Source: Psococerastis gibbosa (taxonomy: Eukaryota > Arthropoda > Insecta > Psocodea > Psocidae). From it: a DNA stretch of 64,000 bases. The DNA lies in contig OZ020490.1 of assembly GCA_963971405.1 (NCBI GenBank), positions 992,001 to 1,056,000 on the forward strand, in the 5' to 3' direction. Made by a program: the position numbers and the translations under genes. Every line of letters begins with the position of its first letter. Position 1 is the first letter of the stretch. The notes beneath the pieces were generated by a model, which was not told the DNA's origin, did no database searches, and was given only the letters and a program-made list of their open reading frames with translations. Shown here piece by piece: positions 1,171-36,905 of the stretch.

Positions 1171-1215
1171 TTCACCGATCAATCCATGCGAGGGCGCAGC
1201 CCGAGCTGCCGCTCG
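1171..1215 (+). repeat. Module G stub: last GC hairpin only
   Basis: Only the D hairpin survives: GGGC-GCA-GCCC within tgcgagggcgcagcccgag, followed by ctgccgctcgac. Its left edge is the deletion junction that fused the linker's T-rich end to tcaccgatcaat. The ccgatcaatt context is shared with the D site of U2 (about 8429), not with later units (ctcatcaataact), so U1 and U2 share this ancestry. Confidence 0.85.
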
Positions 1216-1740
1216 ACAAATGGTCTTAAAAGATAGATAGGACCAAGTCGAGTGGGGGAAAAATAGAATCATCCCAATCGGGCCAAAATTGGCCCAGTTA
1301 TGACATTTTTCCCCAACCCCTGCAAAATTGCCAAAAAAAGTGCACATTTTACATTGGTTTTCCTATGCTGCGGAAAACGCGATAACAAAAAATTGAGATC
1401 CGCTGCGGCCAAAATGGCTTCGTAGCGCTATTCGGCCAACCTTTCCCCAACTTTCCCCCCAGGTCTCATACCTATGTAAAATCTGACGGCTTCCAGATAA
1501 TTAGCAAAGTGAAAAAGGGCAAAAATGCGAAAAAATGCCCATTTTCGACGAAAAAACGCGTTTTTCGGGGACGATTTTCGCGGGAAAAAAATTGATTCAA
1601 AAAATTTAAAACCACTTTGCTACTTTCCACTATCCTTGCTCTTCTCAACTGTGTAACCTATATTGCTGTCAGTCCACCAGTTTCCCCACAGCTAGGTATG
1701 TAAGGGGGGTGTGCAAGAGGCCTACATGCGGGAAAAGGGT
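1216..1740 (+). repeat. Module K: CpG-containing core, type I
   Basis: About 523 bp with many CpG dinucleotides, unlike the flanking AT-rich monomers. Inverted repeats are visible: GGGCCAA-AA-TTGGCCC (1280-1295), cgaaaaa-acgcg-tttttcg (1549-1567) and gggca...tgccc (1517-1540). No long open frame. Type I is recognised by cttcgtagcgctattcggcc and gggcaaaaatgcg. Function unknown. Confidence 0.85.
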
Positions 1741-4700
1741 ATACCCTGCTGTGCATGCTTTGAGATAAAAAATTCCACAGCCTGCAATTTTTAACCGACA
1801 TGAATAGTTAAGGGGTCGTTAAAGGCACTATAAATAGGGGTTGCATCCGAGTATACTAGGGGTGGTTCCATCATCCCCCCTCCCCCTTTAAAATCGGGTC
1901 AAAACACGAAATTTCACACGAAATTCTCAAAAATTTTCCCGTTTACGATAATTTCGAAAAATCTACCCTTATTTTAGGGGTGAAAATGTTTTTTTAAATT
2001 TGCAGTTTCGCATGTTGTTTACTAATGTCAACAAGTTATCAACAAATCATCCAATTTAGGTCTACCAGTTCGGGTTCAGTGTGCATATCTTCAATTTTCA
2101 CAATAAAAATGGCCAATGTTATGCTTCCTATTTCTATGATATGAATTTTATATGGATAAAATGTATCACACATTATACTACTGTACCGGTTTAATGTACT
2201 TAAAGTACGATATCAACATATTTTCCCAATTTAGGAACCCAAATTTTCGAATATATGTGTATTATAATGGCATGTTTCATGTCCACTTTCGGTGCTTTAC
2301 ATACTCCATGGATCATGTTGCGTTTAGTGGACGTTTTTATCTTTTACTATCTTATCTTATACTATATGGTATCCAAAAAAGTCAAATAACCCTATATACA
2401 TTACGTATTCTTCCAGCTATTTCAATGCCGCCAAGTGATAGAAAAATGACTATTTTCCTTATTCTCGGCATATTAATTTTTTTGCACCCACAATTACCAG
2501 GACTTAACTACGGAAGCATTTGCATAATGTTTAGTATAGCATCTGTAGCAATGCTATGGTAATTCAAGCCGCACACAATGCTTTCAATACCGTAAAATAA
2601 ATTAATTTTCAATTTTGGTGTATGAAGACCATAAAAGAGTTAAAAAATTATATGGTCTGTGATATCCAAGTAAGACCAACAATTCTTGCTTCATTATAAG
2701 CGGCACAAATACAGCTTTTCAACAAATAGAAACACATGACTTCCTCCTCCCCCCTTCCCCCTGAAATTTCGGTCGAGACACATGAAAACTCAAGGAATTC
2801 TCCCGTTTCTGCAGTTACAAATATTCCACTGTCTGCAGTTTTCAATACGCGAGGATGTTTAATGTGTCGTTGAATGCAGTATGAATTATGCTTTCAAGGG
2901 CGTATACAAGGGATGTTTTCATCATCCCCCCTCCCCCTGTAAAATCGGGTCAAACACGAAATTTCCCACTAAATTCCTGAAAATATTCCCGTTTTTGATA
3001 ATTTCGAAAAATCTACCTTCTTTTTCGTGGTCAAAATGTATCGCAAATTTGCAGTTTCGCATGTTGTTTACTAATGTCAACAAACAATCAACAAATCAAC
3101 CAATTCAGGCCTACCATTTCGGGTACATTGTGGATATCATCATGTTTTTATGTTAAAAATGGCCTATGTTTTGCTTCCTATTTCTATAATATGCATTTTA
3201 TATGATTAAAATGTATCAAACATTATACTACTGTACCGGTTTAATGTAATTATCGTACATTATCAACATATTTTCCCAATTTTAGAACCCAAATTTTAGA
3301 ATATATGTGTATTTTGATGGCATGTTTCATGTCCACTTTCGGTGCTTTACATACTCCATGGTTAATGTTGCGTTTAGTAGACTTTTTATCTTTTATTATC
3401 TTATCTTAGACAATAGGCTATCCGAAAAAGGTTAATAATCCCATATACAATACTTATTCTTCGAGCTATTTCAATGCCGCCAAGTGATAGATAAATGACT
3501 ATTTTCTGTATTCTCGGCATATTAATTTTTTTGCACCCACAATTACCAGGATTTACCTGCGGAAGCACTAGCTTAATGTTTACTATAGTATCTTTAGTAA
3601 TGCTAAGGTAATTTCAGCCACCCACATTGCTTTCAAGTAAATTTCAAGTAAATTTGCAGTTTCACATACTGTTCACAAATATAAACAAAAAATCAACAAA
3701 TGTTCCAATTTACGCCTACCATTTTGGCTACAGTGTGGATATCTTCAAGTTTCACGTTGAAAATATATCTATAATATGTAATTAATATGGATAAAACCTA
3801 TCATTCATTGTACTACTGTATCAGATTCATGTAATTAACGTACAATATCAACATATTTTCGCAATGTAAAATCCCAAAATTGCGAATATTTGTGTCTTTT
3901 TAGGGCATGTTTCATGTCCACTTTCGGTGGTTTACATTCTCTATGGTTTATGTTGAGTTTAGTAGACTTTCTATCTTTTATTATCTTATATAATAGGCTA
4001 TCCGAAAAAGGTAAATAACCCCATATACAATACGTATTCTTCCAGCTTCCAGCCAAGTGATAGACAAATGGCTATTTTCCGGTTTTTCGGCATATTAATT
4101 TTTTTGCACCCTTCTTTCCCTAGAATTACCAACGGAAACAGTTTAATATTAACTACAGTATCTATAGCAATGTCAAGCTAATTTAGGCCACCTATTATGC
4201 TTTCAAAACCGAAAATATAATATAATTAATGTTCTATTTCGGTGTATATAGACCAAGAAAGAGTTAAAAAATTACACAGTCTGTAATATCCAACTTAGGC
4301 CAACGGTTATTTTAAGCGGCTTAATTACAAGTTTTAAACGATTACAAACATATAACTACTTTCGACCCCCTTCCCCCTGAAAATTCGGTCAAAACACAAA
4401 ATTTCATGAAAAGGTCGGGGGAATCTCCCGTTCGATTTTGGTATTTATTTTCACCGTGGCTTATGTTGTATTTTGTAGATGTTTTTTTCACACATGATGT
4501 TTTACCATATACAGGAGTAAATCAAAAAAAGTTTAAAAACCCCCACATACAATACGTATTCTTCAAGCTATTTCAATGCAGCTATGTGGCAGATAAATAA
4601 ATATTTTCCGGTTTCTCGGCATATTAATTTTTTTTCACCACTAAGTCCCAGGAATACTAACAAATACTATTGCTTTATGTATACTATAGTATCTGTAGCA

Positions 4701-6799
4701 ATGTTAGGCTAATTAAAGCCACCTATACTGCTTTCAAGACCGTAAAATTAATTAATATTCAATTTCGGTGCATATTGACGAAAAAATATATAAAAAGCAT
4801 TCAACTTAAGTTACAACTTCATTATAAGCGGCATAAACATAGGTTGGACACGAGTATAAAGACGTAACTTTCAACAACCCCCTTCCCTTTGAAATTCGGT
4901 AAAAAAAAAAAAAATCAAGAACATTTCGGGGAAATCTCCAGTTCAATTTTGGTATTTCTTGACTCCGTGGGTTATGTTATCAATTGTTGATGTCGTTGGC
5001 ATACAATATTTTAGTTAATACAATAGGCAATCCAAGAAGGACAAATAACCCCACATACAATACGTTGTCTTCCAGCTATTTCAATGCCGCCGTATGATAG
5101 AATAATAACTATTTCCCGAATCTCGGCATAGTAACTTTTTTTGCACCCTTAAATACCTGAAATTGCTAACAAATACGGTTACTAAATGTTAAGCGAAGTA
5201 TCTATAGCAATGATGAGTCGTTTCAAGTCACCCGTCTTACTTTCAGACCCGTAAAAATAATTCATATTCAATTTGGGTGCATTAACCCTAATAAATAGAC
5301 AAAAAATTATACGGCCTGCAATAAACAGGTTAAGCCAACAATTATTCGCTCATTATAAGCAGCAAATATAAAGGTTTGAAACAAATATAAACACATAACA
5401 TCCAACAACCCCCTTCCTCCAGAAAATTCGACCGAAACGCAAAATTTCAAGAAAAAGTCAGGGAAATATCTCATTTGATTTAATTTTTTATTTACTCCGT
5501 GGTTTATGTTGTGTTATGTCGATGGTTATATCACACATTACTTTATAAGGTCAAATAGGCCCATATACAATATGCATTCTTCGGGCTATTTCAATGCCGC
5601 TACTTAATAGAAAAATGACTATTTTCCGGTTTTTCGGCAGATTAATTTTTTTGCAGCCATAACAAAAACTATATTGGTTAATGTTTGGCAAAATATCTGT
5701 AGCAACGATGATGAGTCATTTTAAGTAATTCTGCTTACTTTGAAAACCCTAAAAATAATTAATATTCAATTTAGGTGTATTAACACGAATAAACAGACAA
5801 AAAATATATACAGCCACCCACATTGCGTTTAGTAGACGTTTTTATCTTTTATTATCTTAGCTTATACTCTAAACTAACCAAAAAAGTCAAATAACCCCAA
5901 ATACACTACGTATTCTTCGAGCTATTTCAATTTCAATAGATAAATGACTATTTTCTGTATTCTCGAACATCAATTTTTTTTTTTGCACCCTTTTTTCCCT
6001 AGAATAACCAACGGAAACTGTTGCTTAATGTTAACTATAGTATCTATAGCAGTGCCAAACTAATTTAGGCCACCTATTTTGCTTTTCAACCGTAAAAAGT
6101 ATAAATGTTCAATTTCGGTGTATATAGACGAAAAAAGAGTTAAAAAATAATTCAGCCTGTAATATCCAACTTAGGGCAACACGGTTACTGCCTCATTATA
6201 AGCGGCTTAAATACAGGTTTTAAACAAATGCAGACATACAACTACTTTCAACCCCCTTCCCCCTGAAAATTCGGTCAAAACCCAAAATTTCATGAAAAGG
6301 TCGGGGAAATCACCCGTTTGATATTGGTATTTATTTACTCCGTGGCTTATGTTGCATTTTGTAGCTGCATGTTTTTATCACGAATTACATTAACATGTAC
6401 TGTATTAAATCAAAATATTTTAAAACCCCCACACGCAATACGTATGCTTCAAGCTGTTTCAATGCAGCTGTGTGATAGATAAATGAATATTTTCCGCTTT
6501 CTCGGCAAAATAATTTTTTTTCACCACTAAGTCCCAGGAGTAACTAACACATACTATTGCTTAATGTATATTATAGTATTTTCAGCAAAGATAGGCTAAT
6601 TAAAACCAAGAATACTCCCTTTAAGACCGTAAAATTAATTAATATTCAATTTCGGTGCATATTGACGAAAAAATTGATATTCAATTCGACAGCCTGCAAT
6701 TTTCAACCGAAAATAATTTTTTATGTCTCATTAGAAGCAGTATTAATTGTGGCTTCAAACGAGTATAAACACATATTTTCAAATTCATACCTTCACCCC
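1741..6799 (+). repeat. M run of U1: AT-rich monomers
   Basis: No gene is seen. Anchors tttcaatgc[c/a]gc lie at about 2418, 3466, 4567, 5078, 5587 and 6454, with degenerate versions near 4042 and 5920. A typical monomer has, in order, a C-rich tract (cccccttccccctgaaa), attcggtcaaaacac, a ccgtgg-ttatgttg block, the anchor, ttctcggcatattaatttttt, ttaatgttaactatagtatc, and cttcattataagcggc. Short open frames at 2152, 2881, 3835(-), 4406, 4670 and 6557 are by-products of the repeat. Confidence 0.88.
1829..1840 (+). promoter_or_regulatory. TATAAATAGGGG box, invariant in all ten copies
   Basis: The 12-mer lies about 90 bp downstream of module K. The other copies are at about 9082, 11,656, 19,643, 28,161, 35,420, 42,752, 44,250, 49,121 and 58,282, all unchanged although flanking bases vary. 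It fits a Pol II TATA box well. The homologous spot in ordinary monomers reads like taagcggcataaata, so the box may simply be one monomer variant. Transcription is inference. Confidence 0.35.
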
Positions 6800-7145
6800 T
6801 AAAACGGGAGTGGAACACAAAGTGACGCATTTCCGGCAATCCCATTTGAATTGCGTGGGCGGGTTTAAAGCAATTTTTTGATGTAGAAGACCTATCTTAA
6901 TAATTTAAATTATACCCATGTCTTCGTCCATTCTTCCTCTTTCATGGCATGATATGCCTTTTGATAATCAAGCAAGTGTTTTTGGCTTTGAGGGTGTAAA
7001 ACGCCAGGGGGTGCGCACGATTTTCCTCAAGAAAGGCCTCTTTCGGCCGCGTTATTGTCTACCTATATATAAAAAATTAAAATTACTTAAAGGCTTATAC
7101 GGGCTTTTTCACGCTTCTTTCCCTTTCCAGCCATATATCATTTAA
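6800..7145 (+). promoter_or_regulatory. Module A, beta copy
   Basis: The CRE-, ETS- and EGR-like sites and the TATA-like run are all intact. The 75-codon frame (6918-7145) begins MSSSILPL and has a private change giving FHASF instead of FHVSF. Confidence 0.4.
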
Positions 7146-7800
7146 GCTAATTAGTTAATTAAATTTAAGTTAATTTAGGCGTTGTCACGTTAAACTATCG
7201 TCCGTAAACCGCCTTTACAACCGACTTATAGAGACAACCAATTTTTTTTCATCCTTAAATACTGAGAATTGCTATCAAAAACTGTTTAAAGTAGCACACC
7301 CCCTAACCCCTTAAAATGTGGTCCAAACACAAAAGTTAAAGGAAAAGTCGGGGAAATATCCCATTTCATTTCAATTTTTATTTACCCGTGGTTTATGTTG
7401 TGTTATGTAGATTTATATGACATAATATTTTATTTCATACCGTATGGTATCTAAAAAATCAAATCGGCCCATTTTACAATATCTATTCTTAGTGCTGTTT
7501 CAATGAAGCAAATGAGATATTTTCCATATTTTTTACATACGGTATTATAATTTTTTCAACCATTTCATCCCAGGATACTGCTTTTGAAAGCTTGGCATAC
7601 TATCATTGGCATTGCTAAGAATTCTATAGCAACCTGTATTGGTGTCATGACTGTAAAATTAATTAATATCCAATTAGGTGTAATAAGACCGAAAAACAGA
7701 AGAAAAACAATTCCACAGCCTAAAATTTGTAATTGACATGAATGGCTTACATGTCCATATAAGCAATTGAAATGAGGGTTTGAAACGAGTATTTAAATTT

Positions 7801-8470
7801 TTTCCAACATCCACCCTCTTCCCTCTCACAAACTCGCCTTTTTTCCATTCCTCTTCCTTCTTTAATTCTTAACTATCGTTCCATTCATGTTAGCATGATG
7901 TGTGATGCCTCATTGGACAGCTCTCTACTCGACGATTGATTTGACATCCATGACACCCCACAATACACAATTTACAGAAGCAGTGACGGCGAGGCCCGAA
8001 GGGCCGAGCTGCGTTTGGTCCGAGTTTCCTACGTTTCTCCTCCGTATTTAAGTAAACTTTCACTGCGTTCCATCTTCACCCCCATGTAATTTCTTAGTAA
8101 AAAGTGGCAACTATAGCCAAAAACCGTCCTCCCCCCCCCCCCAAACACGCCTTTTTCAATTCTTCTTCCTTCTTTAACTCATAACTCCCGTACCATTCAT
8201 GATACAATCGTGTGTGATAGCTCATTGGAAAGCTCTCGACTCGAGGATTCATCTGACACCCATGAGGATACCCACCATGATCAGTGCTCATGAGCAGTGA
8301 CCGCGAGGCCGAAGGCCGAGCTGCCGCCCGCGGCAGGCGCAAGTGTAGGAGCCATGTGGGGCCCGTAGGGCCCCTGTGGCGGAGACACTTGTTATTACAA
8401 CTCTATAGAACCCACCTACGACCACTCACCGATCAATTATTGCGAGGGCGCAGCCCGAGCTGCCGCCCGA
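7801..8470 (+). repeat. Module G: GC-hairpin cluster (reference copy)
   Basis: Two tandem, diverged repeats of about 313 bp (P, then Q) each run from a C-rich tract through a pyrimidine-rich stretch and a conserved attcatg / cattgga / cagct-like segment to a GC hairpin. Hairpin B is GGCCC-GAA-GGGCC (7993-8005), C is GGCC-GAA-GGCC (8307-8317), D is GGGC-GCA-GCCC (8446-8456). Two more perfect ones follow C: CTGCCGC-CC-GCGGCAG (8321-8336) and GGGGCCC-GTA-GGGCCCC (8358-8374). B, C and D share the flanks CGA and GAGCTGC. A poly-C tract at about 8129 varies in length between copies. Confidence 0.9.
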
Positions 8471-8992
8471 CAAATGGACTTAAAAGATAGATACATCCAA
8501 GTCGAGTGGGAAAAATTTAGAATCATCCCAATCGGGCCAAAATTGGCCCAGTTATGACATTTTTCCCCAACCCCTGCAAAATTGCCAAAAAAGTGCCAAT
8601 TTTACATTGGTTTTCCTATGCTGCGGAAAACGCGATAAAAAAAAATTGAGATCCGCTGCGGCCAAAATGGCTTCGTAGCGCTATTCGCTCAACCTTTCCC
8701 CAACTTTCCCCCCAGGTCTCATACCTGTGTAAAATCTGACGGCTTCCAGATAATTAGCAATGTGAAAAAGGGCAAAAATGCGAAAAAATGCCCATTTTCG
8801 ACGAAAAAACGCGTTTTTCGGGGACGATTTTCGCGGGAAAAAAATTGATTCAAAAAATTTAAAACCACTTTGCTACTTTCCACTATCCTTGCTCTTCTCA
8901 ACTGTGTAACCTATATTGCTGTCATTCCACCAGTTTCCCCACAGCTAGGTATGTAAGGGGGGTGTGCAAGAGGCCTACATGCGGGAAAAGGG
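8471..8992 (+). repeat. Module K, type I variant
   Basis: Type I, but with ctattcgctcaacc, intermediate between the type I (ctattcggccaacc) and type II (ctattccctcaacc) forms. Confidence 0.85.
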
Positions 8993-10555
8993 TATACCCT
9001 GCTGTGCATGCTTTGAGATAAAAAATTCCACAGCCTGCAATTTTTAACCGACATGAATAGTTAAGGGGTCGTTAAAGGCAATATAAATAGGGGTTGCATC
9101 CGAGTATACTAGGGGTGGTTCCATCATCCCCACTCCCCCTTTAAAATCGGGTCAAACACGAAATTTCACGCGAAATTCTCAAAATTTTTCCCGTTTTCGA
9201 TAATTTCGAAAAATCTACCCTTATTTTAGGGGTGAAAATGTTTTTTAAATTTGCAGTTTCGCATGTTGTTTACTAATGTCAACAAGTTATCAACAAATCA
9301 TCCAATTTAGGTCTACCAGTTCGGGTTCAGTGTGCATATCTTCAATTTTCACAATAAAAATGGCCAATGTTATGCTTCCTATTTCTATGATATGAATTTT
9401 ATATGGATAAAATGTATCACACATTATACTGCTGTACCGGTTTAATGTACTTAAAGTACGATATCAACATATTTTCCCAATTTAGGAACCCAAATTTTCG
9501 AATATATATGTATTATAATGGCATGTTTCATGTCCACTTTCGGTGCTTTACATACTCCATGGATCATGTTGCGTTTAGTGGACGTTTTTATCTTTTACTA
9601 TCTTATCTTATACTATATTGTATCTAAAAAGGTCAAATAACCCTATATACATTACGTATTCTTCCAGCTATTTCAATGCCGCCAAGTCATAGAAAAATGA
9701 CTATTTTCCTTATTCTCGGCATATTAATTTTTTTGCACCCACAATTACCAGGACTTAACTACGAAAGCATTTGCATAATGTTTAATTAAGTATCTGTAGC
9801 AATGCTATGGTAATTTAAGCCACCCACAATGCTTTCAATACCGTAAAATAAATTCATTTTCAATTTTGGTGTATGAAGACCATAAAAGAGTTAAAAAATT
9901 ATATACTCTGTAATATCCAAGTAGGACCAACAATTATAGCTTCATTATAAGCGGCACAAATACAGCTATTTAGCAAATACAAACACATGACTTCTTCCTC
10001 CCCCCTTCCCCCTGAAATTTCGGTCGAGACGCATAAAAACTCAAGGAATTCTCCCGTTTCTGCAGTTACAAATATTCCACTGTCTGCAGTTTTCAATACG
10101 CGAGGATGTTTAATGTGTCGTTGAATGCAGTATGAATGATGCTTTCAAGGGCGTATACAAGGGATGTTTTCATCATCCCCCCTCCCCCTGTAAAATCGGG
10201 TCAAACACGAAATTTCCCACTAAATTCCTGAAAATATTCCCGTTTTTGATAATTTCGAAAAATCTACCTCCTTTTTCGTGGTCAAAATGTATCGTAAATT
10301 TGCAGTTTCGCATGTTGTTTACTAATGTCAACAAACAATCAACAAATCATCCAATTTAGGCCTACCATTTCGGGTACATTGTGGATATCATCATGTTTTT
10401 ATGTTAAAAATGGCCTATGTTTTGCTTCCTATTTCTATAATATCCATTTTATATGAATAAAATGTATCAAACATTATACTACTGTACCGGTTTAATGTAA
10501 TTATCGTACATTATCCACATATTTTCCCAATTTTAGAACCCAAATTTTCGAGTAT
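8993..10555 (+). repeat. M run of U2, first part (cut short)
   Basis: Holds the TATA-box monomer and the compound monomer, then stops at 10,555 (ttttcgagtat) where the duplication restarts in module G. No gene is seen. Confidence 0.88.
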
Positions 10556-11044
10556 CAGTGACGGCGAGGCCCGAAGGGCCGAGCTGCGTTTGGTCCGAGT
10601 TTCCTACGGTTCTCCTCCGTATTTAAGTAAACTTTCACTGCGTTCCATCTTCACCCCCATGTAATTTCTTAGTAAAAAGTGGCAACTATAGCCAATAACC
10701 GTCCTCCCCCCCCCCCAAACACGCCTTTTTCAATTCTTCTTCCTTCTTTAACTCATAACTCCCGTACCATTCATGATACAATCGTGTGTGATAGCTCATT
10801 GGAAAGCTCTCGACGCGAGGATTCATTTGCCACCCATGAGGATACACACTATGATCAGTGCTCATGAGCAGTGACCGCGAGGCCGAAGGCCGAGCTGCCG
10901 CCCGCGGCAGGCGCAAGTGTAGGAGCCATGTGGGGCCCGTAGGGCCCCTGTGGCGGAGACACTTGTTATTATAACTTAATAGAACCCACCTACGACCACT
11001 CACTCATCAATAACTGCGAGGGCGCAGCCCGAGCTGCCGCCCGA
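10556..11044 (+). repeat. Module G, partial duplicate starting at hairpin B
   Basis: Begins exactly at cagtgacggc of hairpin B because it is the left edge of the 2575-bp tandem duplication; repeat P upstream of B is absent. Hairpins B, C and D and the two accessory hairpins are intact. From about 10,975 it becomes near-identical to 34,739 onward. Confidence 0.9.
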
Positions 11045-11566
11045 CAAATGGTCTTAAAAGATAGATACATCCAAGTCGAGTGGGGGAAAAATAGAATCAT
11101 CCCAATCGGGCCAAAATTGGCCCAGTTATGACATTTTTCCCCAACCCCTGCAAAATTGCCAAAAAAGTGCACATTTTACATTGGTTTTCCTATGCTGCGG
11201 AAAACGCGATAACAAAAAATTGAGATCCGCTGCGGCCAAAATGGCGACGTAGCGCTATTCCCTCAACCTTTCCCCAACTTTCCCCCCAGGTCTCATACCT
11301 ATGTAAAATCTGACGGCTTCCAGATAATTAGCAAAGTGAAAAAGTGTAAAAACTCCAAAAAATGCCCGTTTTCGACGAAAAAACCCGTTTTTCGGGGGCA
11401 ATTTCCGCGGGAAAAAAATTGATTCGAAAAAAATAAAACCACTTTGCTACTTTCCACTATCCTTGCTCTTTACAACTGTGTAAGTTATATTGCTGTCGGT
11501 CTACCAGTTTCCCCACAGCTAGGTATGTAAGGGGGGTGTGCAAGGGGCCTACATGCGGGAAAAGGG
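11045..11566 (+). repeat. Module K, type II
   Basis: Carries gacgtagcgctattccctc, gtgtaaaaactcc and gggggcaatttccgcggg. The gggca...tgccc stem of type I is lost. It ends with gtaccccccgctgtg in place of gtataccctgctgtg. Shared with 34,809-35,330 only. Confidence 0.85.
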
Positions 11567-13111
11567 TACCCCCCGCTGTGCATGCTTAGAGATAAAAAAT
11601 TCCACAGCCTGCAATTTTTAACCGACATGAATAGTTAAGGGGTCGCTAAAGGCACTATAAATAGGGGTTGCACCCGAGTGTACAAAGGGTGGTTCCATCA
11701 TCCCCCCTCCCCCTTTAAAATCGGGTCAAACACGAAATTTCACGCGATATTCTCAAAATTATTCCCGTTTTCCATCATTTCGAAAAATCTACCCTTATTC
11801 TAGGGGTGAAAATGTTTTTTAAATTTGCAGTTTCGCATGATGTTTACTAATGTAAACAAACTGTCAACAAATCATACAATTTAAGTCTAGCATTTCGGCT
11901 ACAGTGTGGATATTTTCAAGTTTCACGTTGAAAATGGCCAATGTTTTCCTTCCTATTTCTATAATATATACTTTATATGGATAAAGTGTATGACACATTA
12001 TACTACTGTACTAGATTCATGTAAGTAACGTACAATATCGACTTATTTTCCCAATTTAACAACCCAAATTTTCGATTATATGTGTATTTTTAAGGCATGT
12101 TTCACGTCCACTTTCGGTGGTTTACATACTCTATGGTTTATGTTGCGTTTAGTGGACGTTTTTATCTTTTACTATCTTATCTTATACTATATGGTATCTA
12201 AAAAGGTCAAATAACCCTATATACATTACGTATTCTTCCAGCAATTTCAAAGCCGCCAAGAGATAGAAAAATGACTATTTTCCTTATTCTAGGCATATTA
12301 ATTTTTTTGCACCCACAATTACCAGGACTCAACTACGGAAGCATTTGCATAATGTTCAATTAACTATCTGTAGCAATGCTATGGTAATTTAAGCCACCCA
12401 CAGTGCTTTCTATACCGTAAAATTAATTAATATTCAATTATGGTGTATGAAAACTATAAAAGAGATAAAAAAATTATATAGTCTGAAATATCCAAGTAAG
12501 ATTAACAATTATTGCTTCATTATAAGCGGCACAAATACAGCTTTTCAACAAATACAAACACATGACTTCCTCCTCCCCCCTTCCCCTGAAATTTCGGTCG
12601 AGACACATAAAAACTCAAGGAATTCTCCCGTTTCTGCAGTTACAAATATTCCACTGTCTGCAGTTTTCAATACGCGAGGATGTTTAATGTGTCGTTGAAT
12701 GCAGTATGAATGATGCTTTCAAGGGCGTATACAAGGGGTGTTTTCATCATCCCCCCTCCCCCTCTAAAATCGGGTACGACACGAAATTTCCCACTAAATT
12801 CCTGAAAATATTCCCGTTTTTTATAATTTCGAAAAATCTACCTCCTTTTTCGTGGTCAAAATGTATCGTAAATTTGCAGTTTCGCATGTTGTTTACTAAT
12901 GTCAACAAACAATCAACAAATCATCCAATTTAGGCCTACCATTTCGGGTACATTGTGGATATCATCATGTTTTTATGTTAAAAATGGCCTATGTTTTGCT
13001 TCCTATTTCTATAATATGCATTTTATATGAATAAAATGTATCAAACATTATACTACTGTACCGGTTTAATGTAATTATCGTACATTATCCACATATTTTC
13101 CCAATTTTAGA

Positions 13112-13140
13112 ACCCAAATTTTCGAACCCAAATTTTCGAA
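13112..13140 (+). repeat. 14-bp tandem duplication marker (acccaaattttcga)
   Basis: acccaaattttcga is doubled here. It is single at the homologous places near 3290, 10,541, 21,112 and 29,618. Confidence 0.92.
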
Positions 13141-14061
13141 TACATGTGTATTTTGATGGCATGTTTCATGTCCACTTTCGGTGCTTTACATACTCCATGG
13201 TTAATGTTGCGTTTAGTAGACTTTTTATCTTTTATTATCTTATCTTAGACAATAGGCTATCCGAAAAAGGTTAATAATCCCATATACAATACTTATTCTT
13301 CGAGCTATTTCAATGCCGCCAAGTGATAGATAAATGACTATTTTCTGTATTCTCGCCATATTAATTTTTTTGCACCCGCAATTACCAGGATTTACCTACG
13401 GAAGCACTAGCTTAATGTTTACTATAGTATCTTTAGCACTGCTAAGGTAATTTCAGCCACCCACATTGCTTTCAAGTAAATTTCAAGTAAATTTGCAGTT
13501 TCACATACTGTTTACATATGTAAACAAAAAACCAACAAATGTTCCAATTTACGCCTACCATTTTGGCTACAGTGTGGATATCTTCAAGTTTCACGTTGAA
13601 AATGGCATATATTTGGCTTCTTATATCTATAATATGTAATTATTATGGATAAAACCTATCATTCATTATACTACTGTATCAGATTCATGTAATTAACGTA
13701 CAATATCAACATATTTTCGCAATGTAAAATCACAAAATTGCGAATATTTGTGTCTTTTTAGGGCATGTTTCATGTCCACTTTCGGTGGTTTACATTCTCT
13801 ATGGTTTATGTTGAGTTTAGTAGACTTTTTATCTTTTATTATCTTATAAAATAGGCTATCCGAAAAAGGTAAATAATCCCATATACAATACGTATTCTTC
13901 CAGCTATTTCAATGCCGCCAAGTGATAGACAAATGGCTATTTTCCGGTTTTTCGGCATATTAATTTTTTTGCACCCTTCTTTCCCTAGAATTACCAACGG
14001 AAACAGTTTAATGTTAACTATAGTATCTATAGCAATGTCAAGCTAATTTAGGCCACCTATT

Positions 14062-14153
14062 ATGCTTTCAAAACCGAAAATATAATATAATTAATGTTCT
14101 ATTTCGGATGCTTTCAAAACCGAAAATATAATATAATTAATGTTCTATTTCGG
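14062..14153 (+). repeat. 46-bp tandem duplication marker
   Basis: Two copies of a 46-bp segment starting atgctttcaaaaccgaaaat and ending ttctatttcgg. Single copy at the same place in U1, U3 and U4. Confidence 0.95.
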
Positions 14154-15540
14154 TGTATATAGACCAAGAAAGAGTTAAAAAATTACACAGTCTGTAATAT
14201 CCAACTTAGGCCAACGGTTATTTTAAGCGGCTTAATTACAAGTTTTAAACGATTACAAACATATAACTACTTTCGACCCCCTTCCCCCTGAAAATTCGGT
14301 CAAAACACAAAATTTCATGAAAAGGTCGGGGGAATCTCCCGTTCGATTTTGGTATTTATTTTCACCGTGGCTTATGTTGTATTTTGTAGATGTTTTTTTC
14401 ACACATGATGTTTTACCATATACTGGAGTAAATCAAAAAAAGTTTAAAAACCCCCACATGCAATACGTATTCTTCTAGCTATTTCAATGCAGCTATGTGG
14501 TAGATAAATAAATATTTTCCGGTTTCTCGGCATATTAATTTTTTTTCACCACTAAGTCCCAGGAATACTAACAAATACTATTGCTTTATGTATACTATAG
14601 TATCTGTAGCAATGTTAGGCTAATTAAAGCCACCTATACTGCTTTCAAGACCGTAAAATTAATTAATATTCAATTTCGGTGCATATTGACGAAAAAATAT
14701 GTAAAAAGCATTCAACTTAAGTTACAACTTCATTATAAGCGGCATAAACATAGGTTGGACACGAGTATAAAGACGTAACTTTCAACAACCCCCTTCCCTT
14801 TGAAATTCGGTAAAAAAAAAAAAAAAAATCAAGAACATTTCGGGGAAATCTCCAGTTCAATTTTGGTATTTCTTGACTCCGTGGGTTATGTTGTCAATTG
14901 TTGATGTCGTTGGCATACAATATTTTAGTTAATACAATAGGCAATCCAAGAAGGACAAATAACCCCACATACAATACGTTGTCTTCCAGCTATTTCAATG
15001 CCGCCGTATGATAGAATAATAACTATTTTCCGAATCTCGGCATATTAACTTTTTTTGCACCCTTAAATACCTGAAATTGCTAACAAATACGGTTACTAAA
15101 TGTTAAGCGAAGTATCTATAGCAATGATGAGTCGTTTCAAGTCACCCGTCTTACTTTCAGACCCGTAAAAATAATTCATATTCAATTTGGGTGCATTAAC
15201 CCTAATAAATAGACAAAAAATTATACGGCCTGCAATAAACAGGTTAAGCCAACAATTATTCGCTCATTATAAGCAGCAAATATAAAGGTTTGAAACAAAT
15301 ATAAACACATAACATCCATCAACCCCCTTCCTCCAGAAAATTCGACCAAAACGCAAAATTTCAAGAAAAAGTCAGGGAAATATCTCATTTGACTTAATTT
15401 TTTATTTACTCCGAGGTTTATGTTGTGTTATGTCGATGGTTATATCACACATTACTTTATAAGGTCAAATAGGCCCATATACAATATGCATTCTTCGGGC
15501 TATTTCAATGCCGCTACTTAATAGAAAAATGATTATTTTC

Positions 15541-16860
15541 CGGTTTTTCGGCAGATTAATTTTTTTGCAGCCATAACAAAAACTATATTGGTTAATGTTT
15601 GGCAAAATATCTGTAACAACGATGATGAGTCATTTTAAGTAATTCTGCTTACTTTGAAAACCCTAAAAATAATTAATATTCAATTTAGGTGTATTAACAC
15701 GAATAAACAGACAAAAAATATATACAGCCACCCACATTGCGTTTAGTAGACGTTTTTATCTTTTATTATCTTAGCTTATACTATAAACTAACCAAAAAGT
15801 CAAATAACCCCAAATACACTACGTATTCTTCGAGCTATTTCAATTTCAATAGATAAATGACTATTTTCTGTATTCTCGAACATCAATTTTTTTTGCACCC
15901 TTTTTTCCCTAGAATAACCAACGGAAACTGTTGCTTAATGTTAACTATAGTATCTATAGCAGTGCCAAACTAATTTAGGCCACCTATTTTGCTTTTCAAC
16001 CGTAAAAAGTATAAATGTTCAATTTCGGTGTATATATACGAAAAAAAGAGTTAAAAAATAATTCAGCCTGTAATATCCAACTTAGGGCAACACGGTTACT
16101 GCCTCATTATAAGCGGCTTAAATACAGGTTTTAAACAAATGCAGACATATAACTACTTTCAACCCCCTTCCCCCTGAAAATTCGGTCAAAACCCAAAAAA
16201 CGGTTTTTCGGCAGATTAATTTTTTTGCAGCCATAACAAAAACTATATTGGTTAATGTTTGGCAAAATATCTGTAGCAACGATGATGAGTCATTTTAAGT
16301 AATTCTGCTTACTTTGAAAACCCTAAAAATAATTAATATTCAATTTAGGTGTATTAACACGAATAAACAGACAAAAAATATATACAGCCACCCACATTGC
16401 GTTTAGTAGACGTTTTTATCTTTTATTATCTTAGCTTATACTATAAGCTAACCAAAAAAGTCAAATAACCCCAAATACACTACGTATTCTTCGAGCTATT
16501 TCAATTTCAATAGATAAATGACTATTTTCTGTATTCTCGAACATCAATTTTTTTTTGCACCCTTTTTTCCCTAGAATAACCAACGGAAACTGTTGCTTAA
16601 TGTTAACTATAGTATCTATAGCAGTGCCAAACTAATTTAGGCCACCTATTTTGCTTTTCAACCGTAAAAAGTATAAATGTTCAATTTCGGTGTATATAGA
16701 CGAAAAAAGAGTTAAAAAATAATTCAGCCTGTAATATCCAACTTAGGGCAACACGGTTACTGCCTCATTATAAGCGGCTTAAATACAGGTTTTAAACAAA
16801 TGCAGACATACAACTACTTTCAACCCCCTTCCCCCTGAAAATTCGGTCAAAACCCAAAAT
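15541..16860 (+). repeat. Direct tandem duplication, unit about 660 bp
   Basis: The interval 15,541-16,200 recurs at 16,201-16,860. The junction is acccaaaaaa then cggtttttcggcag. The unit is a little longer than one monomer and the ends lie in non-homologous monomer positions, so this is not simple monomer-register unequal exchange. Confidence 0.92.
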
Positions 16861-17366
16861 TTCATGAAAAGGTCGGGGAAATCTCCCGTTTGATATTGGT
16901 ATTTATTTACTCCGTGGCTTATGTTGCATTTTGTAGCTGCATGTTTTTATCACGAATTACTTTAACATGTACTGTATTAAATCAAAATATTTTAAAACCC
17001 CCACACGCAATACGTATGCTTCAAGTTGTTTCAATGCAGCTGTGTGATAGATAAATGAATATTTTCCGCTTTCTCGGCAAAATAATTTTTTTTCACCACT
17101 AAGTCCCAGGAGTAACTAACACATACTATTGCTTAATGTATATTATAGTATTTTCAGCAAAGATAGGCTAATTAAAACCAAGAATACTCCTTTTAAGACT
17201 GTAAAATTAATTAATATTCAATTTCATATTGACGAAAAAATTGATATTCAATTCGACAGCCTGCAATTTTCAACCGAAAATAATTTTTTATGTCTCATTA
17301 GAAGCAGTATTAATTGTGGCTTCAAACGAGTATAAACACATATTTTCAAATTCATACCTTCACCCC

Positions 17367-17712
17367 TAAAACGGGAGTGGAACACAAAGTGACGCATTTC
17401 CGGCAATCCCATTTGAATTGCGTGGGCGGGTTTAAAGCAATTTTTTGATGTAGAAGACCTATCTTAATAATTTAAATTATACCCATGTCTTCGTCCATTC
17501 TTCCTCTTTCATGGCATGATATGCCTTTTGATAATCAAGCAAGTGTTTTTGGCTTTGAGGGTGTAAAACGCCAGGGGGTGCGCACGATTTTCCTCAAGAA
17601 AGGCCTCTTTCGGCCGCGTTATTGTCTACCTATATATAAAAAATTAAAATTACTTAAAGGCTTATACGGGCTTTTTCACGTTTCTTTCCCTTTCCAGCCA
17701 TATATCATTTAA
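17367..17712 (+). promoter_or_regulatory. Module A, beta copy
   Basis: All motif matches are intact, and the frame at 17,485-17,712 is the commonest beta form (FHVSFPF). Just upstream, the monomer lacks five bases found in its relatives (tttcatattg instead of tttcggtgcatattg), which shortens the overlapping open frame at 17,129. Confidence 0.4.
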
Positions 17713-18370
17713 GTTAATTAGTTAATTAAATTTAAGTTAATTTAGGCGTTGTCACGTTAAACTATCGTCCGTAAACCGCCTTTACAACCGACTTATAGAG
17801 ACAACCAATTTTTTTTCATCCTTAAATACTGAGAATTGCTATCAAAAACTGTTTAAAGTAGCACACCCCTAACCCCTTAAAATTTGGTCCAAACACAAAA
17901 GTTAAAGGAAAAGTCGGGGAAATATCCCATTTCATTTCAATTTTTATTTACCCGTGGTTTATGTTGTGTTATGTAGATTTATATGACATAATATTTTATT
18001 TCATACCGTAGGGTATCTAAAAAATCAAATCGGCCCATTTTACAATATCTATTCTTAGTGCTGTTTCAATGCAGCAAATGAGATATTTTCCATATTTTTT
18101 ACATACGGAATTATAATTTTTTCAACCATTTCATCCCAGGATACTGCTTTTGAAAGCTTGGCATACTATCATTGGCATTGCTAAGAATTCTATAGCAACC
18201 TGTATTGGTGTCATGACTGTAAAATTAATTAATATCCAATTAGGTTTAATAAGACCGAAAAACAGATGAAAAACAATTCCACAGCCTAAAATTTGTAATG
18301 GACATGAATGGCTTACATGTCCATAAAAGCAATTGAAATGAGGGTTTGAAACGAGTATTTAAAATTTTTT

Positions 18371-19030
18371 CCAACATCCACCCTCTTCCCTCTCACAAAC
18401 TCGCCTTTTTTCCATTCCTCTTCCTTCTTTAATTCTTAACTATCGTTCCATTCATGTTAGCATGATGTGTGATGCCTCATTGGACAGCTCTCTACTCGAC
18501 GATTGATTTGACATCCATGACACCCCACAATACATAATTTACAGAAGCAGTGACGGCGAGGCCCGAAGGGCCGAGCTGCGTTTGGTCCGAGTATCCTACG
18601 GTTCTCCTCCGTATTTAAGTAAACTTTCACTGCGTTCCATCTTCACCCCCATGTAATTTCTTAGTAAAAAGTGGCAACTATAGCCAATAACCGTCCTCCC
18701 CCCCCCCCCCAAACACGCCTTTTTCAATTCTTCTTCCTTCTTTAACTCATAACTCCCGTACCATTCATGATACAATCGTGTGTGATAGCTCATTGGAAAG
18801 CTCTCGACGCGAGGATTCATTTGACATGAGGATACCCACCATGATCAGTGCTCATGAGCAGTGACCGCGAGGCCGAAGGCCGAGCTGCCGCCCGCGGCAG
18901 GCGCAAGTGTAGGAGCCATGTGGGGCCCGTAGGGCCCCTGTGGCGGAGACACTTGTTATAACTTAATAGAACCCACCTACGACCACTCACTCATCAATAA
19001 CTGCGAGGGCGCAGCCCGAGCTGCCGCCCG
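18371..19030 (+). repeat. Module G, complete copy
   Basis: All five hairpins are intact. A 9-bp gap relative to other copies (ttgacatgagg instead of ttgacacccatgagg plus context, about 18,830) is shared with the copy at 41,940 and marks those two as sisters. Confidence 0.9.
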
Positions 19031-19553
19031 ACAAATGGTCTTAAAAGATAGATACATCCAAGTCGAGTGGGGGAAAAATAGAATCATCCCAATCGGGCCA
19101 AAATTGGCCCAGTTATGACATTTTTCCCAAACCCCTGCAAAATTGCCAAAAAAGTGCCAATTTTACATTGGTTTTCCTATGCTGCGGAAAACGCGATAAA
19201 AAAAAATTGAGATCCGCTGCGGCCAAAATGGCTTCGTAGCGCTATTCGGCCAACCTTTCCCCAACTTTCCCCCCAGGTCTCATACCTATGTAAAATCTGA
19301 CGGCTTCCAGATAATTAGCAAAGTGAAAAAGGGCAAAAATGCGAAAAAATGCCAGTTTTCGACGAAAAAACGCGTTTTTCGGGGACGATTTTCGCGGGAA
19401 AAAAATTGATTCGAAAAAATTAAAACCACTTTGCTTCTTTCCACTATCCTTGCTCTTCTCAACAGTGAAAGTTATATTGCTGTCAGTCTACCAGTTTCCC
19501 CACAGCTAGGTATGTAAGGGGGGTGTGCAAGAGGCCTACATGCGGGAAAAGGG
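19031..19553 (+). repeat. Module K, type I
   Basis: Type I with private or rare changes: tttttcccaaacccc (shared with 48,600) and aacagtgaaagtt near the 3' end. Confidence 0.85.
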
Positions 19554-22500
19554 TATACCCTGCTGTGCATGCTTAGAGATAAAAAATTCCACAGCCTGCA
19601 ATTTTTAACCAACATGAATAGTTAATGTGTCCCTAAAGGCACTATAAATAGGGGTTGCACCAGAGTATACAAGGGGTGGTTCCATCATCCCCCCTCCCCC
19701 ATTAAAATCGGGTCAAACACGAAATTTCACGCGATATTCTCAAAATTATTCCCGTTTTCCATCATTTCGAAAAATCTACCCTTATTTTAGGGGTGAAAAT
19801 GTTTTTTAAATTTGCAGTTTTGCATGTTGTTTACTAATGTAAACAAGTTGTCAACAAATCATACAATTTAAGTCTAGCATTTCGGCTACAGTGTCGATAT
19901 CTTCAAGTTTCACGTTAAAAATGGCCCATGTTTTGCTTCCTTTTTCTATAATATTTCTTTTACATGGACAAAACCTATCACCCATTATACTACTGTACCA
20001 GATTCATGTAATGAACGTACAATATCAACATATTTTTCCAATTTAAGAACCCAAATTTTCGATTAAATGTGTATTTTTAAGGCATCTTTCACGTCCACTT
20101 TCGGTGGTTTACACACTCCATGGTTTATGTTGGGTTTAGTAGACGTTTTTATCTTTTATTATCTTATCTTATACTATATGGTATCTAAAAACGTCAAATA
20201 AACCTATATACATTATGTATTCTTCCAGCTATTTCAATGCCGCCAAGTGATAGAAAAATGACTATTTTCCATATCCTCGGCATATTAATTTTTTTAGCAC
20301 CCACAATTACCAGGACTTAACTACGGAAGCATTTGCATAATGTTAAGTATAGTGTCTGTAGCAATGCTATGGTAATTTAAGCCACCCACAATGCTTTCAA
20401 TACAGTAAAATAAAATAATTTTCAATTTTGTTGTATGAAGACCATAAAAGAGTTAAAAAATTATATACTCTGTAATATCCAAGTAAGACCCACAATTATT
20501 GCTTCATTATAAGCGGCACAAATACAGCTTTTAAACAAATACAAACACATAACTTCCTCCTCCCCCCTTCCCCCTGAAATTTCGATTGAATTACAAAAAA
20601 ACTCAATGAATTATCCCGTTTCTGCAGTTACAAATATTCCACAATCTGCAGTTTTCAATACGCGAGGATGTTTAATGTGTCGTTGAATGCAGTATGAATG
20701 ATGCTTTCAAGGGCGTATACAAGGGATGTTTTCATCATCCCCCCTCCCCCTGTAAAATCGGGTCAAACACGAGATTTCCCACTAAATTCCTGAAAATATT
20801 CCCGTTTTTGATAATTTCGAAAAATCTACCTTCTTTTTCGTGGTCAAAATGTATCGTAAATTTGCAGTTTCGCATGTTGTTTACTAATGTCAACAAACAA
20901 TCAACAAATCATCCAATTTAGGCCTACCTAAGGCCTACCTTTAGGGTACATTGTGGATATCATCATGTTTTTATGTTAAAAATGGCCTATGTTTTGCTTC
21001 CTATTTCTATAATATGCATTTTATATGAATAAAATGTATCAAACATTATACTACTGTACCGGTTTCATGTAATTATCGTACATTATCCACATATTTTCCC
21101 AATTTTAGAACCCAAATTTTCGAATACATGTGTATTTTGATGGCATGTTTCATGTCCACTTTCGGTGCTTTACATACTCCATGGTTAATGTTGCGTTTAG
21201 TAGACTTTTTATCTTTTATTATCTTATCTTAGACAATAGGCTATCCGAAAAAGGTTAATAATCCCATATACAATACTTATTCTTCGAGCTATTCCAATGC
21301 CGCCAAGTGATAGATAAATGACTATTTTCTGTATTCTCGGCATATTAATTTTTTTGCACCCGCAATTACCAGGATTTACCTACGGAAGCACTAGCTTAAT
21401 GTTTACTATAGTATCTTTAGCAATGCTATGGTAATTTCAGCCACCCACATTGCTTTCAAGTAAATTTCAAGTAAATTTGCAGTTTCACATACTGTTTACA
21501 TATGTAAACAAAAAATCAACAAATGTTCCAATTTACGCCTACCATTTTGGCTACAGTGTGGATATCATCAAGTTTCACGTTGAAAATGGCATATATTTGG
21601 CTTCCTATATCTATAATATGTAATTAATATGGATAAAACCTATCATTCATTGTACTACTGTATCAGATTCATGTAATTAACGTACAATATCAACATATTT
21701 TCGCAATGTAAAATCCCAAAATTGCGAATATTTGTGTCTTTTTAGGGCATGTTTCATGTCCACTTTCGGTGGTTTACATTCTCTATGGTTTAGTAGTAGT
21801 AGTAGTTTAGTAGAATTTTTATCTTTTATTATGTTATATAATAGGCTATCCGAAAAAGGTAAATAATCCCATATACAATACGTATTCTTCCAGCTTCCAG
21901 CCAAGTGATAGACAAATGGCTATTTTCCGGTTTTTCGGCATATTAATTTTTTTGCACCCTTCTTTCCCTAGAATTACCAACGGAAACAGTTTAATATTAA
22001 CTATAGTATCTATAGCAATGTCAAGCTAATTTAGGCCACCTATTATGCTTTCAAAACCGAAAATATAATATAATTAATGTTCTATTTCGGTGTATATAGA
22101 CCAAGAAAGAGTTAAAAAATTACACAGTCTGTAATATCCAACTTAGGCCAACGGTTATTTTAAGCGGCTTAATTACAAGTTTTAAACGATTACAAACATA
22201 TAACTACTTTCGACCCCCTTCCCCCTGAAAATTCGGTCAAAACACAAAATTTCATGAAAAGGTCGGGGGAATCTCCCGTTCGATTTTGGTATTTATTTTC
22301 ACCGTGGCTTATGTTGTATTTTGTAGATGTTTTTTTCACACATGATGTTTTACCATATACTGGAGTAAATCAAAAAAAGTTTAAAAACCCCCACATACAA
22401 TACGTATTCTTCAAGCTATTTCAATGCAGCTATGTGGTAGATAAATAAATATTTTCCGGTTTCTCGGCATATTAATTTTTTTTCACCACTAAGTCCCAGG

Positions 22501-24672
22501 AATACTAACAAATACTATTGCTTTATGTATACTATAGTATCTGTAGCAATGTTAGGCTAATTAAAGCCACCTATACTGCTTTCAAGACCGTAAAATTAAT
22601 TAATATTCAATTTCGGTGCATATTGACGAAAAAATATATAAAAAGCATTCAACTTAAGTTACAACTTCATTATAAGCGGCATAAACATAGGTTGGACACG
22701 AGTATAAAGACGTAACTTTCAACAACCCCCTTCCCTTTGAAATTCGGTAAAAAACAAAAAGAAATCAAGAACATTTCGGGGAAATCTCCAGTTCAATTTT
22801 GGTATTTCTTGACTCCGTGGGTTATGTTGTCAATTGTTGATGTCGTTGGCATACAATATTTTAGTTAATACAATAGGCAATCCAAGAAGGACAAATAACC
22901 CCACATACAATACGTTGTCTTCCAGCTATTTCAATGCCGCCGTATGATAGAATAATAACTATTTTCCGAATCTCGGCATATTAACTTTTTTTGCACCCTT
23001 AAATACCTGAAATTGCTAACAAATACGGTTACTAAATGTTAAGCGAAGTACCTATAGCAATGATGAGTCGTTTCAAGTCACCCGTCTTACTTTCAGACCC
23101 GTAAAAATAATTCATATTCAATTTGGGTGCATTAACCCTAATAAATAGACAAAAAATTATACGGCCTGCAATAAACAGGTTAAGCCAACAATTATTCGCT
23201 CATTATAAGCAACAAATATAAAGGTTTGAAACAAATATAAACACATAACATCCATCAACCCCCTTCCTCCAGAAAATTCGACCAAAACGCAAAATTTCAA
23301 GAAAAATTCAGGGAAATATCTCATTTGATTTAATTTTTTATTTACTCCGTGGTTTATGTTGTGTTATGTCGATGGTTATATCACACATTACTTTATAAGG
23401 TCAAATAGGCCCATATACAATATGCATTCTTCGGGCTATTTCAATGCCGCTACTTAATAGAAAAATGACTATTTTCCGGTTTTTCGGCAGATTAATTTTT
23501 TTGCAGCCATAACAAAAACTATATTGGTTAATGTTTGGCAAAATATCTGTAGCAACGATGATGAGTCATTTTAAGTAATTCTGCTTACTTTGAAAACCCT
23601 AAAAATAATTAATATTCAATTTAGGTGTATTAACACGAATAAACAGACAAAAAATATATTCAGCCACCCACATTGCGTTTAGTAGACGTTTTTATCTTTT
23701 ATTATCTTAGCTGATACTATAAACTAACCATAAAGTCAAATAACCCCAAATACACTACGTATTCTTCGAGCTATTTCAATTTCAATAGATAAATGACTAT
23801 TTTCTGTATTCTCGAACATCAATTTTTTTTTTTGCACCCTTTTTTCCCTAGAATAACCAACGGAAACTGTTGCTTAATGTTAACTATAGTATCTATAGCA
23901 GTGCCAAACTAATTTAGGCCACCTATTTTGCTTTTCAACCGTAAAAAGTATAAATGTTCAATTTCGGTGTATATAGACGAAAAAAGAGTTAAAAAATAAT
24001 TCAGCCTGTAATATCCAACTTAGGGCAACACGGTTACTGCCTCATTATAAGCGGCTTAAATACAGGTTTTAAACAAATGCAGACATATAACTACTTTCAA
24101 CCCCCTTCCCCCTGAAAATTCGGTCAAAACCCAAAATTTCATGAAAAGGTCGGGGAAATCTCCCGTTTGATATTGGTATTTATTTACTCCGTGGCTTATG
24201 TTGCATTTTGTAGCTGCATGTTTTTATCACGAATTACTTTAACATGTACTGTATTAAATCAAAATATTTTAAAACCCCCACACACAATACGTATGCTTCA
24301 AGCTGTTTCAATGCAGCTATGTGATAGATAAATGAATATTTTCCGCTTTCTCGGCAAAATAACTTTTTTTCACCACTACGTCCCAGGAGTAACTAACACA
24401 TACTATTGCTTAATGTATATTATAGTATTTTCAGCAAAGATAGGCTAATTAAAACCAAGAATACTCCTTTTAAGACCGTAAAATTAATTAATATTCAATT
24501 TCGGTGCATATTGACGAAAAAATTGATATTCAATTCGACAGCCTGCAATTTTCAACCGAAAATAATTTTTTATGTCTCATTAGAAGCAGTATTAATTGTG
24601 GCTTCAAACGAGTATAAACACATATTTTCAAATTCATACCTTCACCCCTAAAACGGGAGTGGAACACAAAGT
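19554..24672 (+). repeat. M run of U3
   Basis: Canonical monomer order. Local oddities are a repeated aggcctacct at about 20,920-20,940 and a TAG triplet run at about 21,791-21,805 replacing tatgttgag. The poly-A tract is interrupted (aaaaaacaaaaagaaa, about 22,748). No gene is seen. Confidence 0.88.
21791..21805 (+). repeat. TAG triplet run
   Basis: Five tandem tag units replace tatgttgag found here in the other units. Private to U3. Confidence 0.85.
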
Positions 24673-25900: not shown

Positions 25901-26222
25901 ACGCATTTCCGGCAATCCCATTTGAATTGCGTGGGCGGGTTGAAAGCAATTTTTTTTATGTGGAAGACCTATCTTAATAATTTAAATTATACCCATGTCT
26001 TCGTCCATTCCTCCTCTTTCATGGCATGATATGCCTTTTGATAATCAAGCAAGTGTTTTTGGCTTTGAGGGTGTAAAACGCCAGGGGGTGCGCACGATTT
26101 TCCTCAAAAAAGGCCTCTTTCGGCCGCGTTATTGTCTACCTATATATAAAAAATTAAAATTACTTAAAGGCTTATACGGGCTTTTCCACGTTTCTTTCTC
26201 TTTCCAGCCATATATCATTTAA
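25877..26222 (+). promoter_or_regulatory. Module A, alpha copy
   Basis: Near-identical to the copy at 440-785 (MSSSIPPL, FHVSFSF), with the GCGTGGGCG site retained. The two alpha copies share the fused monomer upstream, so they spread as one block. Confidence 0.4.
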
Positions 26223-36876: not shown

Positions 36877-36905
36877 CCCAAATTTTCGAACCCAAATTTT
36901 CGAAT
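36877..36905 (+). repeat. 14-bp tandem duplication marker
   Basis: Same doubling as at 13,112; travels with the 46-bp marker. Confidence 0.92.

Follow-up and report, generated by a model that had tools for sequence, protein, structure and literature searches.

Introduction

Reports on Helraiser/Helibat and on the insect elements Hel1 and Hel-2 describe, between them, a set of features for canonical Helitrons: a RepHel protein, a 5' TC, an A|T target, a hairpin before the 3' end, and head-to-tail end junctions (PMC4778049, PMC6544945, PMC4344730). In Helraiser, the 3' hairpin acts as a transposition terminator whose deletion lowers transposition and raises read-through; a swapped stem keeps ~90% activity, and a changed loop behaves like deletion of the hairpin (PMC4778049). 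In the Fusarium elements FoHeli1 and FoHeli2, of the Helitron2/Helentron group, the 5' hairpins are reported to have different stems and the same GAA loop (PMC5148889). How RepHel recognizes the Helitron 3' end is unsettled so far, with exchanges of stem and loop on record for one reconstructed element. GNA loops and tandem G.A pairs are known stable DNA motifs, and DNA mini-hairpins of the GCGAAGC type, with a GNA loop, are extraordinarily stable.

Two further reports relate satellite-like arrays to the central tandem repeats of Helitrons and Helentrons, examples being Cg170 and Cg_HINE of the oyster and DINE-TR1 (PMC12628747, PMC7492417), and tandem, head-to-tail arrays of plant centromeric Helitrons have been attributed to rolling-circle replication (Xiong et al. 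2016, as related in PMC12628747). Helitron-satellite links and rolling-circle Helitron arrays are already known (PMC12628747, PMC7492417).

The locus considered here is a stretch of 64,000 nucleotides (C15:992001-1056000, "the window") in the genome of the psocid Psococerastis gibbosa, which comprises 409,210,807 bases in 68 contigs. The window holds a tandem satellite array with GC-rich hairpins, and we conclude with high confidence that these are the subterminal 3'-end hairpins of Helitron rolling-circle transposons, lying in a satellite that contains Helitron sequence.

Results

Three hairpins with common flanks, all on the plus strand, recur in each complete unit of the tandem array in the window. 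In the unit described here, hairpin B (7989..8009, GCGA-GGCCC-GAA-GGGCC-GAGC) is the first subterminal hairpin of the Helitron 3' end, hairpin C (8303..8321, GCGA-GGCC-GAA-GGCC-GAGC) is the second and lies directly 5' of the terminal block, and hairpin D (8442..8460, GCGA-GGGC-GCA-GCCC-GAGC) is an extra copy with no terminal block downstream. An earlier note on this DNA had described CGA on the left and GAGCTGC on the right of all three, together with perfect stems and 3-nt loops. Both descriptions are borne out (GGCCC/GGGCC, GGCC/GGCC and GGGC/GCCC, with loops GAA, GAA and GCA), the left flank being in fact GCGA; the note's end for the feature, 8456, needs correction, as D reaches 8460 and its GAGCTGC 8463. 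With the remaining copies, which are spread over 1188..57658 on the same strand, hairpins with GAGCTGC total 26 (9 B, 8 C, 9 D), and the 26 GAGCTGC sites of the window, where 1.46 are expected by chance, are without exception on the plus strand and close a hairpin. A fourth hairpin, GGGGCCC-GTA-GGGCCCC at 8358-8374, lies between C and D, and the loops of all four are GNA with a C-G closing pair. B and C are duplicates that differ by one added base pair and form part of a longer duplication: over the ~195 bp that end with the hairpin they are 74-77% alike.

We aligned 19 B-to-D segments, nine from the window, nine from loci L002-L010 and one from C15. Since L002 coincides with one of the window units, 18 of the segments are distinct. 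In 16 of these the three hairpins agree in every letter; one exception lacks B and C, and the other, at the C15 Helitron locus, has an altered B. There is therefore no stem covariation inside the array, and stem variation is found between paralogous hairpins and between elements; the earlier claim of covarying stems needs correction on this point. With 40 of 522 candidates scored, array sequence is present on seven contigs or more, and the array sits on nuclear contigs, including ones of 34.83 Mb and 46.55 Mb, so that the likeness to organellar GC clusters drawn in the same note finds no support. An organellar or sponge-mitochondrial origin was dropped after nuclear Helitron ends turned up. 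As a separate observation, COX1-like fragments are present in nuclear contigs, a long one at C14:11085363-11086704 and others at about 40 further places, and these are probably nuclear copies of mitochondrial DNA. The mitochondrial COX1 itself looks, on inspection, like that of an arthropod.

A genome-wide motif search, which had been suggested as a check, reveals an excess of hairpins beyond the array, contrary to the outcome that the note had named as its refutation. The pattern GCGAGN{5,29}CGAGC has 4649 matches in the genome against 2621 for the reversed pattern; when a GNA loop is required (GCGAGN{3,6}GNAN{3,6}CGAGC) the numbers are 1621 and 107, and with TGC added to the GNA-loop pattern they are 1354 and 0. 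Among the first 100 matches to GCGAGN{5,29}CGAGC, which were not selected by loop, nine form perfect, symmetric hairpins whose loop is three bases long (five of them distinct), and the loop is GNA in all nine. A nine-base spacer is present in 40 of the first 100 GNA-pattern matches, 35 of them with perfect arms; with the C1 arrays excluded, arms are perfect in 19 of the 24 nine-base-spacer matches listed. In a chance control on viral contigs, where at least 120 stretches match, perfect arms occur in 2 of the 80 matches listed. Shuffling the right arms among 23 distinct symmetric hairpins 2000 times gives only modest support for pairing: 59 of 85 pairs are formed (mean 50.1 and maximum 60 in the shuffles) and 7 stems are perfect (mean 4.2, maximum 10). 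Of 77 hairpins, namely those outside the C1 arrays among the first 100 of the 1354 TGC-pattern matches, 34 stand in same-strand pairs 37-55 bp apart (17 pairs), as in Helitron ends.

Hairpin C is joined by a conserved link, TGCCGCCCGCGGCAGGCG (8322..8339, plus strand), to a terminal hairpin, CAAGTGT...GGGGCCC-GTA-GGGCCCC...ACACTTG (8340..8391, plus strand), which ends in CTTG at 8388-8391 and is followed by T. The link recurs in dispersed 3' ends, and the dispersed copies compared have one common order, hairpin, TGCCGCCCGCGGCAGGCG, terminal hairpin CAAG...CTTG, followed by unrelated flanks; hairpin C occupies the same position as their second hairpin. In Helitron 3' ends the hairpin thus has a fixed place, 5' of TGCCGCCCG...GCGCAAG-hairpin-CTTG|T. 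The 3'-end pattern GCCGCCCGN{4,12}GGCGCAAGN{18,44}CTTGT has 409 genome matches and none in the reversed control. Of 30 exact 3' ends, those on C1 up to 36.4 Mb, eight of which are inside arrays, 25 have an exact GCGAG-GNA-CGAGC hairpin no more than 120 bp upstream.

This fixed position bears on the earlier suggestion that a small independent mobile hairpin, resembling organellar GC clusters, was inserted several times in the satellite unit. Such a history would account for fixed flanks enclosing differing stems, and for hairpin D and the dispersed loci L011, L013 and L018, which lack a complete Helitron 3' block and are not fully explained by the Helitron reading. The presence of the hairpin upstream of 25 of the 30 Helitron ends nevertheless makes an autonomous mini-hairpin unlikely, and the same-strand pairing of 34 of the 77 hairpins listed and the inclusion of B and C in a longer duplication count against it too; we regard it as highly improbable. 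Hardly more probable, in our estimate, is that the hairpins have been kept for a function of the satellite, in cruciforms, chromatin or the centromere, their Helitron origin being mere history. The letter identity of B, C and D among array segments and the spread of the arrays over several contigs speak for such a function. Other stretches of the unit are equally invariant, however, with positions 640-680 of the reference segment free of variation, and many dispersed elements have hairpins of the same type, with 29 of the 41 C1 3' ends listed being of types other than the array's.

Terminal hairpins also come with different stems. We typed 39 distinct terminal ends and found a stem of at least 5 pairs in 29, with 10 lacking such a stem. 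The loops of the 29 stems are GAA in 16, GTA in 4 and GGA in 1 (21 in total), another loop being best in 8. The main terminal stems are GGGGCCGC/GCGGTCCC with loop GAA, GCAGCC/GGCTGC with loop GAA, which has a longer relative CAGCAGCC/GGCTGCTG with loop GGA, and GGGGCCC/GGGCCCC with loop GTA; the stems are clearly different around GAA, GGA or GTA loops. The window's terminal hairpin at 8358-8374 sits 13 nt before CTTG, and that of the dispersed family 8 nt before. Folded as DNA, the 101 bases of 8300-8400 reach -28.6 kcal/mol (z -3.81), a value that none of 200 shuffles equals. Folded singly, B (z -1.00) and C (z +1.10) are not singled out from their shuffles, D (z -2.81) folds by a pairing other than the hairpin described, and a 138-base dispersed end folds no better than shuffles (z -0.31), in each case with a programme that may give no credit to GNA loops or G.A pairs.

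The dispersed elements form a family of ~1.5 kb with Helitron ends. CTTG is followed by T in all 30 dispersed loci, as in the window copy. A 23-base probe, which itself starts with TC and was allowed up to 4 mismatches, located a 5' end at 18 of the 30 loci. In 17 of these TC is preceded by A, and in the eighteenth by the CTTG of another copy. L059 and L062 have common flanks, so not all 18 copies are independent. Comparison of the two AT-rich flanks of each copy gives no match in 11, 2 nt in 2 and 4 nt in 5, and the 4-base matches leave some doubt about the absence of a target duplication. Insertions at L051-L080 prefer AT-rich sites, and TTATA often follows CTTG|T at a distance of a few bases. 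The immediate vicinity of a DNA terminus also bears on the idea that the structure acts as RNA, as a transcript-end or stability signal of the Helitron or the satellite. The hairpins would form in RNA too, and in the window all are on one strand; they directly precede CTTG|T with its A|T target, though, and GNA loops and tandem G.A pairs are known as stable motifs of DNA, and we consider a role in RNA very unlikely.

The relation of this family to the satellite extends beyond the 3' end. The dispersed element contains two central repeats of ~490 bp that are 79% alike, and the 1.5-kb element has 109 plus-strand matches and no minus-strand match to the window. Together the matches cover 9842 bases, counting those of the hairpin and tail. 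The same comparison gave 0 matches with a base-shuffled window and 0 from a control flank of 1.5 kb. Among the matches listed, those of the central repeat are 68-85% alike. As one example, the satellite segment at 6683..7053 (plus strand) is ~73% related to the central tandem repeat. The similarity to the central repeat ends at 7053-7057, and at 7058..7078, on the same strand, lies TCTACCTATATATAAAAAATT, a tentative candidate for the 5' terminus of the Helitron copy whose 3' end is at 8391; the candidate resembles other 5' ends here and is preceded by G, not A.

All 8 complete units of the window have the CTTG 3' end. Compared with one reference unit, the window changes register 18 times. Three of these changes (1171|1187, 10550|10556 and 54531) coincide with D, B and C or lie no more than ~16 nt away from them, the one at 54531 falling at the end of the right stem arm of hairpin C; a second reference unit gives more segments, mostly short. 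The closeness of hairpins to array breakpoints is suggestive only. In some array units a 46-base unit is also present as a doublet, perfect or nearly so (14062-14153, 37826-37917, 44890-44981 and 60677-60768).

For the growth of the array, as distinct from the identity of the hairpins, ordinary unequal crossing-over without rolling-circle replication comes close to an even chance: a Helitron would have inserted in one unit and been co-amplified with it. The array copies compared resemble one another beyond CTTG, as one amplified insertion predicts, and several of the other register changes, or breaks in unit order, appear to switch between related monomers. Parts of the monomer are related to Helitron central repeats, on the other hand, and at another place in the genome two copies meet precisely head to tail in a CTTG|TC junction. 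This junction, between L072 and L073, belongs to a group of close same-strand 1.5-kb copies (L071-L073, C2:43853703-43857482), and is as expected for circular or rolling-circle intermediates. On C1, 3' ends near 32.22 and 42.25 Mb are spaced in a similar way.

A profile search with Helitron_like_N returned 20 matches, three of them in open frames of 1671 aa (C1:12049269, C14:26381245 and C15:7184944) that lie in or beside arrays. Array copies stand on both sides of the RepHel frame on C1 and C15, and downstream of it on C14, where the stretch 5' of the frame has no match to the window. In the C15 frame, Pfam matches over the 1596 of 1671 residues scanned include a PIF1 helicase (E 1.4e-55) and Helitron_like_N (E 2.1e-43), and the translation contains an H-A-H string; as far as domain matches can tell, the frame would combine the HUH Rep and PIF1-type helicase of a canonical Helitron. 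No endonuclease domain is among the 11 Pfam matches in the residues scanned, and the Helentron/HINE class was rejected on this ground and on the target, which is A|T and not T-T. The copies on C14 and C15 agree at 99.8% over 4401 bp and therefore look young.

The interval C15:7178000-7195000, read on the minus strand, consists of satellite to base 3138, a RepHel block of ~13 kb, and satellite again from 16104, where it resumes with a hairpin B', followed by C, CTTG and D. The left edge of the block, near base 3138, has no clear A|TC start. B' (GCCAC/GTGGC) differs from B (GGCCC/GGGCC) by two complete base-pair exchanges, G-C to C-G at pair 2 and C-G to A-T at pair 4. From the hairpin onward B and B' are 91.9% identical over 915 bp, and upstream they are unrelated, so that a swap of the hairpin is possible instead of point-by-point compensation. 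The autonomous Helitron has 490-bp repeats of its own, which match neither the window nor the 1.5-kb element; the three sets of central repeats are therefore not all one family. On C2, a 1441-aa RepHel open frame at 17695425 precedes two 3' ends of the dispersed type (C2:17703492-17705054) by ~7.5 kb on the same strand, and is a possible autonomous partner of the 1.5-kb family.

Discussion

The genome-wide excess, the position in Helitron 3' ends and the RepHel frames together make it most likely that the hairpins are Helitron 3'-end, or terminator, hairpins. Against this reading stand the CTTG end, the occurrence of D without a terminal block, the weak folding of B and C, and the modest outcome of the arm shuffling. 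Of the two explanations first offered for differing stems within fixed flanks, selection on a folded structure fits better than a small mobile hairpin and is probably right, with the amendment that the hairpin is part of a mobile element of a kind already known.

In the mechanism that we propose, the element-encoded RepHel would nick the 5' TC end and a single strand would be peeled off; once the 3' end became single-stranded, its GNA-loop hairpins would fold and pause the helicase, and the pause would lead to a second nick at CTTG|T. The letters of the stem would count for less than its pairing, the GNA loop and the flanks GCGA/GAGC, so that stems could drift in a compensated way, and such drift would leave differing stems inside fixed flanks. 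The additional hairpins, 37-55 bp apart in dispersed elements and ~310 bp apart for B and C, probably serve as back-up stops. What we observe are the hairpins, their genome-wide excess and place in the Helitron 3' end, the TC...CTTG ends in A|T sites, one head-to-tail junction and the RepHel frames in or beside arrays; the termination role, the back-up role and the growth of the satellite from Helitron repeats we infer. The behavior of Helraiser on exchange of its stem or its loop agrees with the pattern of fixed loop and free stem seen here.

The C-GA-G flanks on both sides would permit two sheared G.A pairs beneath the stem. A bolder proposal, which we advance tentatively and consider somewhat doubtful, is that the Helitron 3' signal is a code of structure, not of sequence, made up of a loop of the form C-GNA-G, a stem of any letters that pair, and flanks (GCGA/GAGC) capable of two sheared G.A pairs, repeated 2-4 times as a stop array, and that the same module is a point of breakage or strand switching that shapes the satellite. 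The GAA-loop hairpins of fungal Helitron2 ends may, by analogy, indicate a loop rule that reaches far beyond the psocid.

The genome offers a natural experiment on this question, with five subterminal and several terminal stems, a mostly constant GNA loop and flanks, 409 exact 3' ends and an apparently young RepHel nearby; natural stem variants around a mostly constant loop and flanks make the rule for the 3' signal directly testable. The same locus ties long satellite arrays to Helitron ends. What is unusual here is the number of subterminal hairpins per end, the near-uniform GNA loop and an end in CTTG instead of CTRR. A literature search that covered papers outside subscription found none in which Psococerastis and Helitron occur together and four that pair Helitron with Psocodea; for phrases on Helitrons or on several hairpins, the Fusarium report was the only Helitron paper among the matches listed from that literature. 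Multiple hairpins, a prevailing GNA loop and the CTTG end make this a Helitron variant worth testing.

Compared with canonical Helitrons, the psocid elements have in common the RepHel, the 5' TC (in all 18 copies found with the TC probe), A|T insertion, a hairpin near the 3' end and the head-to-tail junction; they differ in the 3' end, which is CTTG and not CTRR in 30 of 30 dispersed loci, and in adding common-flank hairpins upstream of the terminal one, with a GNA loop in most. With FoHeli1 and FoHeli2 they share differing stems around a GAA loop, placed there in 5' hairpins; in contrast to the psocid A|TC...CTTG|T, the Fusarium elements carry terminal inverted repeats that are asymmetric, and their insertion site lies between TNAT and T. 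The loop is the same C-GNA-G as in the GCGAAGC-type mini-hairpins, but those are model oligonucleotides, whereas the psocid loop is in a transposon end. Many of the tandem plant centromeric Helitrons have several 5' ends and one 3' end, whereas the psocid 3' end is repeated in 8 of 8 complete units. Unlike satellites of the Cg170, Cg_HINE and DINE-TR1 type, finally, the psocid unit also includes hairpins of the 3' end, and three of the arrays have an open RepHel frame inside or next to them.
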